From: Clostridia bacterium
GTDB lineage: Bacteria; Bacillota; Clostridia; Christensenellales; Aristaeellaceae
Length of the DNA stretch: 64,000 nt
Direction of reading: 5' to 3'
Assembly: GCA_017549335.1 (NCBI GenBank)
Contig: JAFYVB010000030.1
Span: 1 to 64,000 of the forward strand
Shown piece after piece: positions 1 through 35,603 of the stretch. Position numbers and translations under genes: made by a program. Position 1 is the first letter of the stretch. Each line of letters opens with the position of its first letter. The notes beneath the pieces are model-generated. The model was not told the origin of the DNA, made no database searches, and saw nothing but the letters and a program-made list of their open reading frames with translations.

Positions 1-1829
1 GGCGACCAGCCGGTGAAGGTATAGGTATACTGCGCATCGGCGGGCTTGACGGGGGTTGCGCCGTTATAAGCAGGCGTATCGCCGTAGGGAACGACAGGAT
101 CCACTTTCAGCACATCACCGTTGTAGTTCTTCCAAGTGATGGGATAAGTAAGCTTTTCAAAAATGCCGTTAACCACCACATCGGAGGTGCCGATGGTGAA
201 TTTGTTATCCGTGATGGTCACGCCGCCGGAAATAACCTCCCACCGCACGAACCTGTAACCCTCGCCGGGCGTGGCGGTCAGGGTCACCTCCGTGCCCTCC
301 TCACCCTTTGCCGGATTGGCAGAAACGCTGCCGCCTCCTTCGGTTTGGGCAGTTGCGGCATACTCCGGGATGTTGTAACGGGTGCGCACATAGGACGAAC
401 CGTTCAGCAACGGAATAAGATCGGTCTTGACAGAATAAGGAGTTCCGGCAAGATTTACTGCGCTGGATTCATTGGCTCCCTGTTTCACACCGATCACGTT
501 ATTGGTGGGTTCAACATAAATTTCAGCGCCTTCGCCGAAAGAACCATTATCCCCCGGGCCGATGCCCTGATAGTCGCCAATCGCCGTAACGTCGACGTCG
601 CCTTTCATAATGAGCTTGCCGGTGAAGTTGCCGCCGTAGCCGGCGCCGATGCCAGCATGGCCATTTGCGGTGACGGTGCTGTCCGTGATCGTGATGGTAC
701 CACTCATTTCGCCGTTGTCACCGCTGCCAATACCGGCGCCACCATTCTCGCCTTTTGCGATGACAGTGCTGTCAGTGATCGTGATGGTGCCGCTCATTTC
801 ACCGTACTGACCACTGCCAATACTGCCGGTGACGGTGCTGTCAGTGATCGTAATGGTTCCTTTCATTTCATAGTATACACCGCTGCCAATTCCTGCTCCA
901 TTATTATGTAAAGAGGCAGCAATGACCGTACCGCCGCTGATGATTATACGGCCCTTGTCGCTAATTGAACCGCCGCCAATGCCGGAACCGAGCTCTCCGC
1001 CCATGGCTGTAACCTTTCCGCCCGTGATCGAAACAGTGCCGCTGAAAACGCCGCCGCCAATACCATCGCCTGCATAGTCGCCTTTGGCGTTAACTTCACC
1101 GCCGCTGATTGTAACAGTACCGCTGAAAGTTCCCCAGTAGCTGCCGATACCTACACCTTGGCTGTCACCTGTAGCGGTAACACTGCCTCCGCTGATTGTA
1201 ACAGTGCCGTTGAATCCGCCTCTGTTTCCGCCAATACCTCCACCGCCCTCTCTGCCCTTTGCAGTGATTATACCACCGGTGATGATAACATTACCGTCAA
1301 AGCTGTTGCCACCGATGCCGTAACTTTCTGCGTATGTACCGCCATTCGCGGTGATGATACCGCCCATGATTGTAACGGTACCACTGAAAGCTTCCCAAGC
1401 ATTACCGCCGATACCGGCAGCCTGATCGGTACCGCTGGCATTGAGTTTACCGCAGGCTTTGGTACATTCATGTCCTTCGCCTGCACTTTCGCAGCGAATG
1501 ACAAGATCAAGACCATTATTGGCGATACTGGCACAGCCGTAGCCACCGGTCACGGTGTTCGTCGTGCCGTTTCTAAGTATGATGGTCAGTTTTGTTGCAG
1601 GTGATTTAACACTGATAGCCGGAGAATAGAGCCAATCAGTGGATCCCAATTCGTCGACAACTTCTTGTGCACCCACAATCGTCACACCATCCAAAATAAT
1701 GGTATGCTCACCGGGCTGGTTAATCACGATGGGATCGCAGACACCGCTGTATGTGGTTTCCGCCGCCAGTGCAGACGTTGCCATCAGGCAAAGGAGTAAT
1801 GCGAAGACGAGAATCAGGAGCTTTTTCAT
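1..1829 (-). CDS. Secreted repeat-rich surface protein with InlB-type repeats (partial, 3' end off window)
   Basis: The reading frame is open from the ATG at 1829 to the left edge (609 codons) with no stop. Residues 1-22 are a typical signal peptide (MKKLLILV start, hydrophobic core, cleavage after SALA). From about residue 125 to 420 there are many glycine-rich units of the form GIGGG-x-SGTVTISGG-x-VTA, which suggest a parallel beta-helix-like stalk. Residues of about 490-560 resemble a divergent InlB B-repeat (GYRFVRW core), and the last 45 or so resemble a Listeria-Bacteroides repeat (ITWKNYNGD...TYTFTGW). Such proteins are usually cell-surface adhesins. The C-terminal anchor is not visible. 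The ribosome site is weak (AGAGAGG). Repeat architecture is seen directly; the adhesin role is inferred. Confidence 0.88.
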   Translation of the reverse strand, partial: MKKLLILVFALLLCLMATSALAAETTYSGVCDPIVINQPGEHTIILDGVTIVGAQEVVDELGSTDWLYSPAISVKSPATKLTIILRNGTTNTVTGGYGCASIANNGLDLVIRCESAGEGHECTKACGKLNASGTDQAAGIGGNAWEAFSGTVTIMGGIITANGGTYAESYGIGGNSFDGNVIITGGIITAKGREGGGGIGGNRGGFNGTVTISGGSVTATGDSQGVGIGSYWGTFSGTVTISGGEVNAKGDYAGDGIGGGVFSGTVSITGGKVTAMGGELGSGIGGGSISDKGRIIISGGTVIAASLHNNGAGIGSGVYYEMKGTITITDSTVTGSIGSGQYGEMSGTITITDSTVIAKGENGGAGIGSGDNGEMSGTITITDSTVTANGHAGIGAGYGGNFTGKLIMKGDVDVTAIGDYQGIGPGDNGSFGEGAEIYVEPTNNVIGVKQGANESSAVNLAGTPYSVKTDLIPLLNGSSYVRTRYNIPEYAATAQTEGGGSVSANPAKGEEGTEVTLTATPGEGYRFVRWEVISGGVTITDNKFTIGTSDVVVNGIFEKLTYPITWKNYNGDVLKVDPVVPYGDTPAYNGATPVKPADAQYTYTFTGWS

Positions 1830-1906
1830 GGGGAGGCCTCTCTTCTTATGTAGTGGGATAATTTTTGGCAGGAATTTTATTGTTACATAGCTTTTATAGC
1901 AGCAAA

Positions 1907-1935
1907 ATGATACCATTTTTTTTTTTTTTTGTCAA
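1907..1935 (-). promoter_or_regulatory. Sigma-A promoter with poly-A spacer, candidate phase-variable promoter
   Basis: On the minus strand a perfect -35 TTGACA (1935-1930) is followed by a 17-nt spacer made of 14 A plus TGG, then -10 TATCAT (1912-1907), with an extended TGG -10. It lies 78 nt upstream of the surface protein start. Spacer length is set by the homopolymer. Confidence 0.8.
1916..1930. repeat. Homopolymer run of 15 T (15 A on minus strand)
   Basis: Fifteen consecutive T on the plus strand, far longer than any other mononucleotide run I noticed in this GC-rich window. It sits inside the spacer of the surface protein promoter, where a one-base slip would change the -35/-10 distance. 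Confidence 0.95.
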
Positions 1936-1952
1936 TATTCGGCAACAGAGGA

Positions 1953-1984
1953 GCAATAAAAGGGACGGCTAAATGCCGTCCCTT
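1953..1984 (-). terminator. Intrinsic terminator of the DUF1540 gene
   Basis: A perfect 10-bp stem (AAGGGACGGC, 1960-1969, with its complement 1975-1984), 5-nt loop, and a minus-strand TTTTATT tail. It separates the DUF1540 gene from the surface protein promoter. Confidence 0.85.
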
Positions 1985-2006: not shown

Positions 2007-2180
2007 TTACTTGCAGGCGTAGCTGCTGCACATACTTTCGTCGGCGGCTTCGCCGGTGTAGGCCATGGGGGTGGGTTCCACGCGGATGCTGTCGAGGGCG
2101 CAGTGGTTGTCATCCTTATGATGCTTGCAGGAGGCAACGCTGCAATGGATGCACTGGTGACCGTTCTTGGGCTGACTCAT
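2007..2180 (-). CDS. Small DUF1540-like cysteine-rich protein
   Basis: A 57-residue protein starting MSQPKNGHQCIHCSV and ending SSYACK. The Cys pattern CIHC-x4-C-x7-C followed by a short I-x-V segment matches the DUF1540 family of tiny, probably metal-binding proteins common in Clostridia, whose role is not established. An AAGGAAGG ribosome site lies 8 nt before the ATG, and a strong terminator follows the stop. Another Cys pair (MCSSYAC) sits at the C terminus. Family assignment rests on the Cys pattern alone. Its 5' region is shared with the divergent queT gene. Confidence 0.8.
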   Translation of the reverse strand: MSQPKNGHQCIHCSVASCKHHKDDNHCALDSIRVEPTPMAYTGEAADESMCSSYACK

Positions 2181-2357: not shown

Positions 2358-2837
2358 ATGAAAAAGAGAAACTCGCTGTACCTGACGCAAGCCGCCGTGA
2401 TTGCGGCGCTGTACGTGGCCCTGACCTACCTGAGCAGTATGCTGGGATTGTGGGAGATCCGGTTTTCCGAAGCCATCTGCATTCTGCCCTATTTTACGGC
2501 GGCGGCTGTTCCGGGACTGACGGTGGGCTGCGTGCTTGCCAATGTGCTGACGGGCTGCGCCCTGTGGGACGTGGTGTTCGGTTCGCTGGCAACCTTCATC
2601 GGCGCATACGTTGCCTATCTGCTGCGCAAGAAGAGCTGGGTGCTTGCGCCCTGGCCCAATATCGTGGCCAATACGCTGGTCATTCCGCTGATCCTCAGGT
2701 ACGTATACTTTGATACTTCCCGTACGCTGCCGGGCCTGTTTGCTTATATGGCGGTGAGCGAGGTAGTTTCCGCGGGTGTGCTGGGGTATATGCTGCTGCA
2801 TACCCTCAAAAAGCACGAGCGGATCTTCAAATTGTAA
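2358..2837 (+). CDS. queT: QueT family queuosine-precursor ECF transporter S component
   Basis: A 159-residue, largely hydrophobic protein with about five membrane segments and the family's conserved EIRFSEAI and NVLTGCALWDVVFGS-like segments. QueT is the substrate-binding component of an energy-coupling-factor transporter for queuosine precursors (preQ1/preQ0-like pyrrolopyrimidines). The preQ1-I riboswitch overlapping its ribosome site fits this exactly. The ATG at 2358 lies 12 nt after AAGGAG. The shared ECF energising module is not in this window. Confidence 0.93.
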   Translation: MKKRNSLYLTQAAVIAALYVALTYLSSMLGLWEIRFSEAICILPYFTAAAVPGLTVGCVLANVLTGCALWDVVFGSLATFIGAYVAYLLRKKSWVLAPWPNIVANTLVIPLILRYVYFDTSRTLPGLFAYMAVSEVVSAGVLGYMLLHTLKKHERIFKL

Positions 2838-35364: not shown

Positions 35365-35603
35365 AAAAATAGAAATGTGTCTGTACGTTTCGAAGACGAA
35401 CAGACACTCATTCGCGGTACCACTTCGATTGACGCATTACGCGCCCACCTCATCGCCTGATAACGGTAGGTGACCGGCCGATCTTACTTTGGTTCCGATC
35501 GGCGACTCGGCAGGGGCTTCTCCGTGCTGCGCCGATCTTGCACTGTCATCGGCTCGCTGAGGGCGCACAGATACTTAACTGCGTCAAAGTCTTTGTATTA
35601 CAA
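35365..35603 (-). promoter_or_regulatory. T-box riboswitch leader of alaS
   Basis: The conserved T-box AAGTGGTACCGCG occupies 35425-35413. Its UGGU would pair with an ACCA tRNA end, as expected for tRNA-Ala. It is followed by a terminator stem GTGTCTGT (35407-35400) with ACAGACAC (35384-35377) and a T-rich tail, competing with the antiterminator. Upstream stem-loops fill about 170 nt. The specifier codon could not be fixed by eye. Confidence 0.9.

Follow-up and report, generated by a model that had tools for sequence, protein, structure and literature searches.

The question raised by this locus is whether a homopolymer lying between the two elements of a promoter could set, through its length, the expression of the surface protein encoded behind it. 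The locus stands at the start of the window, by which we mean the whole 64,000-nt stretch of DNA that was analysed. An earlier note had described TTGACA and TATCAT 17 nt apart with 14 A's from a 15-base run between them, and direct reading of the sequence confirmed this arrangement. On the minus strand, the promoter scan and the sequence itself place the -35 element TTGACA at 1930..1935 and the -10 element TATCAT at 1907..1912, separated by a 17-nt spacer (1913..1929) that consists of A14 followed by TGG, the TGn of an extended -10. The A15 homopolymer, read directly at 1916..1930 (minus strand, 15 T on the plus strand), has 14 of its bases inside the spacer and contributes its 15th as the final base of the -35 hexamer. 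TTGACA-A14TGG-TATCAT thus has a homopolymer between -35 and -10, as is characteristic of promoter-spacer contingency loci of the porA/vlp type. In the promoter scan, the promoter agrees with the consensus at 11 of 12 positions, in addition to the TGn preceding its -10. The same scan found 6 promoter-like sites per 5 kb versus 4.0 in shuffled sequences, so the hexamers alone prove little. A 77-nt leader extends between the -10 element and the ATG at 1829, and it contains a ribosome-binding-like AAGAGAGG (1837..1844, minus strand) in a leader common to the paralogues on contigs C1 and C32.

The gene behind this promoter (1..1829, minus strand) is represented by its 5' part of 609 codons, since the contig start (window position 1 = C28:1) truncates it before its C-terminus. 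Translation and Pfam (PF18889, PF18998) revealed a signal peptide, Beta_helix_3 repeats and an InlB-type repeat in its product, in line with the earlier description of the driven gene as encoding a repeat-rich secreted protein. A surface or secreted product, a second property of contingency loci, is indicated by the signal peptide and the repeats and by the LPXTG-type anchor in the paralogue P0001. Upstream on the same strand lies a gene for a 57-aa DUF1540 protein (2007..2180), and a terminator-like hairpin (1960..1984, minus strand) is found between this gene and the promoter of the surface-protein gene. A QueT queuosine-precursor transporter gene (2358-2837, plus strand) also neighbours the surface locus. 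Farther along the window, a T-box leader (35389-35596, minus strand) is the sole Rfam match at gathering thresholds; together with the LPXTG-type anchor, it fits what we take to be a Gram-positive of Bacillota.

Two other functions could be imagined for this stretch, an invertible promoter, of the kind described for Clostridioides difficile in a 2025 review (PMC11868660), and a transcription terminator, as a T run can end one. The sequence contradicts the former, because the search from 1600 to 2400 found no long inverted repeats on either side of the promoter, only the hairpin at 1960-1984 and a 71% pair joining two start-codon regions. The terminator scan likewise found no stem before the T run on the plus strand. 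Either function is scarcely conceivable here.

The length of the tract sets it apart from the rest of its genome (G000; 2,093,158 bases in 41 contigs, 86% complete). A hand tally of A/T runs of at least 8 nt gave 27 of length 8, 3 of length 9, none of length 10 to 13 and one each of length 14 and 15, while extrapolation of the drop from 8 to 9 predicts about 6e-5 runs of at least 14 nt. The A15 spacer tract is therefore far beyond chance, and a tract far above the genomic background length is a third property of contingency loci. Moreover, both A/T runs longer than 9 nt (2/2) form the spacers of TTGACA...TATnAT promoters. We considered whether the ordinary A/T-richness of promoters could produce such spacers and rejected it, because only 2 of the 95 matches to TTGACA-N14-20-TATNAT in G000 (one pair of which has a common -35) have a homopolymer spacer, as judged by eye. 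G/C runs of at least 9 nt are themselves no rarity in terms of base composition, which predicts about 23 in G000 against the 4 found, and only their placement is telling. When the A/T runs of at least 14 nt (2) and the G/C runs of at least 9 nt (4) are counted together, with cut-offs that were chosen after the data had been seen, three of these six long homopolymers fall in the 150 nt before the genes of the paralogue family described below (binomial p = 7e-9).

A protein search, combined with inspection of the ORFs around the matches, identified ten paralogous secreted proteins in G000, and all five of those given to Pfam (5/5) contain Beta_helix_3 repeats. The second poly-A promoter, on contig C1, has an A14 run (C1:17399-17412) in a 16-nt spacer, ending in TGA before a TATAAT. 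The gene behind it encodes a secreted protein of 609 aa that has an LPQTG anchor. This protein is 57% identical to the product of the window gene in alignment, and the two genes have the leader AAGAAGAGAGGCCTCCCCATG in common. The paralogue on C13 has the promoter TTGACA-AAATGTC-G10-TAAACT, in which the 17-nt spacer is occupied by poly-G. For the paralogues C32, C16a, C18a and C18b, TTGACA is followed by spacers of mixed sequence, and no clear TTGACA promoter was recognised upstream of C16b, C16c and C16d. A homopolymer spacer is thus present in 3/10 paralogues (2 poly-A, 1 poly-G) and absent in 7/10, and the tract lengths differ among the three (14 A, 15 A and 10 G). The C1 surface gene is followed directly by one for a second secreted protein, of 316 aa and with a VPQTG-type anchor tail (L003:5385-6335), for which Gram_pos_anchor scored just below its cut-off.

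Outside G000, a search of the genus (10 other species) found no homologue of P0001 at E 1e-8, and orthologous tract lengths are thus not comparable. Homologues of P0002 were found at E 1e-20 in 7 other genomes of the family, five of them matching the InlB-type repeat and two the helix repeats. Their loci (L040-L046), each taken with about 1.5 kb in addition, contain no A/T run of at least 9 nt and no G/C run of at least 8 nt, with the proviso that the promoter may lie outside the stretch covered.

On either side of the tract, the two poly-A promoters show about 79% identity when gapped columns are disregarded. They are homologous, and therefore one event may underlie both poly-A copies. Correspondingly, the tract might slip as a product of neutral expansion, with no selected switching and with one duplicated event behind both copies. 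The trees bear on this in part: the C1 and C28 genes are adjacent on the whole-length tree, whereas the tree of the first 125 residues does not join them, and support for the ten-paralogue tree is weak, with C32 as a long branch. Against neutral expansion, the A run is unbroken in both C1 and C28 even though about a fifth of the sites in their flanks differ, a second base (G) has been recruited in another paralogue, and secreted proteins are far more frequent behind the poly-G spacers of related genomes, presented below, than among neighbouring ORFs. We regard neutral expansion as quite improbable.

Related genomes were searched for both forms of the promoter. The poly-A pattern comprised TTGACA, at least 10 further A's and then TGNTATNAT within 6 nt, a strict definition that would miss looser poly-A promoters. 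G000 alone carried it among 308 genomes of the family and among 391 genomes sampled from the class, with both hits coming from G000, and the reversed control pattern gave 0 matches in both sets. No A/T run of at least 10 nt occurs in 8 of the 10 other genomes of the genus; the remaining two, G006 and G007, have 6 such tracts, none recognisable as a promoter spacer and one adjoining an N gap. The poly-G pattern, TTGACA N3-10 G8 N0-5 TANNNT, was found in 16/308 genomes of the family and 15/391 of the class, that is, in 30/697 together (two genomes belong to both sets, among them G000 with a match), and its reversed form gave 0.

After alternative -10 readings of one tract had been merged, the poly-G matches represented 51 distinct promoters. 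The three -10 positions left free by the pattern agree with the consensus at 110/153, and TATAAT is present in 20/51. Spacer lengths are spread over 11-23 nt with no peak at 17 nt. Spacers of exactly 17 nt account for 4/42 of the poly-G promoters with 14-20 nt and for 67/95 of the ordinary-pattern matches in G000 (p = 1e-11), a comparison between sets from different species in which a single genome, G663, provides six of the ten 15-nt spacers. A signal-peptide-like start was recorded for 27 of the 44 genes downstream of poly-G promoters versus 1 of 40 upstream ORFs at the same loci (p = 3e-9), a control that favours the contrast to some extent, because some of the upstream ORFs are cut at the end of the locus. 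The 44 genes go back to 48 distinct promoters, the 51 less 2 loci and 1 near-identical tandem copy, among which 3 cases at contig ends and 1 case without an ORF are set aside. A smaller, earlier count had given 17/32 versus 2/44 genes of the window (p = 1.5e-6).

These counts come from one fixed rule for signal peptides, which by eye misses L051, L059, L076 and L077 and includes the membrane-anchored L081. The rule was failed by 17/44 genes below poly-G promoters, and judged by eye some genes in this position plainly do not encode surface proteins, including a LacI-like regulator (L054), a DUF177-like protein (L053) and a flavodiiron-like protein. Overall, the poly-G promoters (loci L051-L101) mostly precede genes for secreted proteins or lipoproteins. 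Sets of similar genes were seen by eye behind poly-G promoters in G663, G431, G673, G304 and G295; G663 has nine such promoters, and in G431 similar genes arranged in tandem stand behind the same G14 promoter. The free -10 positions, the spread of the spacers and the secreted products lead us to conclude that the poly-G cases are genuine promoters whose spacers drift in length.

An origin of these tracts in assembly or sequencing would be favoured by the fact that assemblies are least reliable in the length of homopolymers, by the occurrence of poly-G as a known artefact of short reads, and by the state of the G000 assembly (41 contigs, 86% complete). Both A tracts, however, lie within contigs and are flanked by intact promoter elements, and the 51 poly-G cases have a consensus-like -10 at the free positions and a reversed control of 0, which makes an artefact very improbable indeed.

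The tract could also serve a fixed structural purpose, being retained as a stiff A-tract spacer that makes a strong promoter and changes little in length. The window promoter is near consensus with its TGn, both poly-A spacers (16 and 17 nt) are near optimal, and PMC2268961 describes a precedent at the vpma promoter of Mycoplasma agalactiae, where a T tract immediately upstream of the -10 is invariant and no switching is seen. Such a tract without variation advises caution against taking every tract as a switch. The C13 paralogue, though, has G10 at the same place, which means that the geometry of an A tract is not what these promoters have in common. Moreover, the strict poly-A pattern occurs in no other of the 697 genomes, while poly-G spacers recur with smeared lengths. 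A fixed element is accordingly unlikely in our judgement.

Judged from the DNA, the locus is probably a slipped-strand phase-variable promoter that would work in the manner of porA and vlp, with slippage and its effect on transcription being the deduced parts. In the scheme that we propose, a cell-surface beta-helix protein would be expressed from a sigma-70-type promoter whose spacer, A15, is adjustable. Through slipped-strand mispairing at replication, A's would be gained or lost in vivo, the distance between -35 and -10 would leave or regain 16-18 nt, and transcription would fall or return with no regulator involved. With its 17 nt the window copy would be ON, and the 16 nt of C1 would place it close to that state. 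With the same design on paralogues (A14 in C1, G10 in C13), the surface proteins may switch independently and combinatorially, and the benefit may be escape from phage, immune recognition or competitors. The phase variation that the earlier note had suggested on the strength of one promoter is supported in part, by the repetition of the promoter design on paralogues and by the recurrence of poly-G spacers of drifting length in 30/697 genomes.

Several switches reported elsewhere resemble this arrangement in part. In Mycoplasma hyorhinis, a promoter-region A tract switches the vlp genes (PMC10502178), the cause being indels in the -35/-10 spacer (PMC2268961). Common to both is a family of surface proteins with homopolymeric A at the promoter. 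In contrast to M. hyorhinis, where all vlp genes have the tract (PMC10502178), here poly-A stands before 2/10 paralogues and poly-G before 1/10, so that a poly-A tract on every gene of the family, the vlp condition, is not seen. In addition, vlp products are lipoproteins of a wall-less cell, whereas this family is apparently wall-anchored, judging from the LPXTG-type tail of the C1 paralogue, and switching is reported in M. hyorhinis but deduced here. In Neisseria meningitidis, the porA promoter has a G tract between -10 and -35, and 11G, 10G and 9G give graded expression (PMC3639595). It shares with our locus a homopolymer in the spacer of a surface-protein promoter, in the poly-G form also seen in the C13 paralogue; the window gene differs in having poly-A and in its unrelated product and host, and is known from sequence.

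In nspA of the same species, how much of a surface protein is made depends on the length of an A tract in the promoter (PMC6389960). The window gene likewise has a promoter A tract before a surface-protein gene, but that of nspA comprises just 5 or 6 A's and need not be the spacer. In Bifidobacterium breve, slippage of a coding G tract controls sortase pili, which are LPXTG surface proteins (PMC9187656). Both cases concern homopolymers and LPXTG surface proteins of a gut Gram-positive; the tract in B. breve lies between two ORFs of one reading frame and acts on translation, whereas here it lies in a promoter spacer and would act on transcription. Tracts in coding genes are also discussed in PMC2831843.

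The earlier note knew of no described poly-A spacer in this group, and a statement of that kind can hold for this group only: since the vlp genes of Mycoplasma hyorhinis have a promoter A tract, any novelty of the poly-A spacer is limited to this group. Among the literature matches listed, which covered open-licence papers and thus make for a weak absence, there was no report of homopolymer promoter spacers in this class, and in the same open-licence literature none was found of A and G spacers within one gene family. The mechanism is already known, and the interesting part is the host group and the class-wide recurrence. We would give about even chances to the broader view that homopolymer-spacer promoters are a widespread, undescribed, class-wide switch, a contingency system in the style of Neisseria in which poly-G spacers, joined in this species by poly-A, make the expression of secreted, lipoprotein and wall-anchored surface proteins stochastic. 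Promoter switching through slippage is textbook knowledge for mucosal Gram-negatives and mycoplasmas; if our reading is true, it would reach the surface genes of an apparent Gram-positive anaerobe, and the surface heterogeneity of a community would be determined by spacer lengths, which could be counted at about 50 promoters in reads that already exist.

Other G/C tracts of G000 lie within or between coding sequences. A C10 tract (L032:3945-3954; G000:C25:25444-25453) falls within a xylose-isomerase-like TIM-barrel gene (AP_endonuc_2) whose frame, of 301 aa, is open. A C12 tract (L031:4198-4209; G000:C1:60197-60208) falls where a signal-peptide ORF (215 aa) meets an Amidase_3 ORF (214 aa) in another frame, a candidate phase-variable cell-wall amidase. 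Finally, a G10 tract (L033:4055-4064; G000:C41:210054-210063) lies at the break that divides an MmeI-type restriction-modification gene between two frames, the first ORF containing MmeI_N and MmeI_hel and the second the methyltransferase, target-recognition and C domains, which makes this gene a candidate phase-variable methyltransferase.
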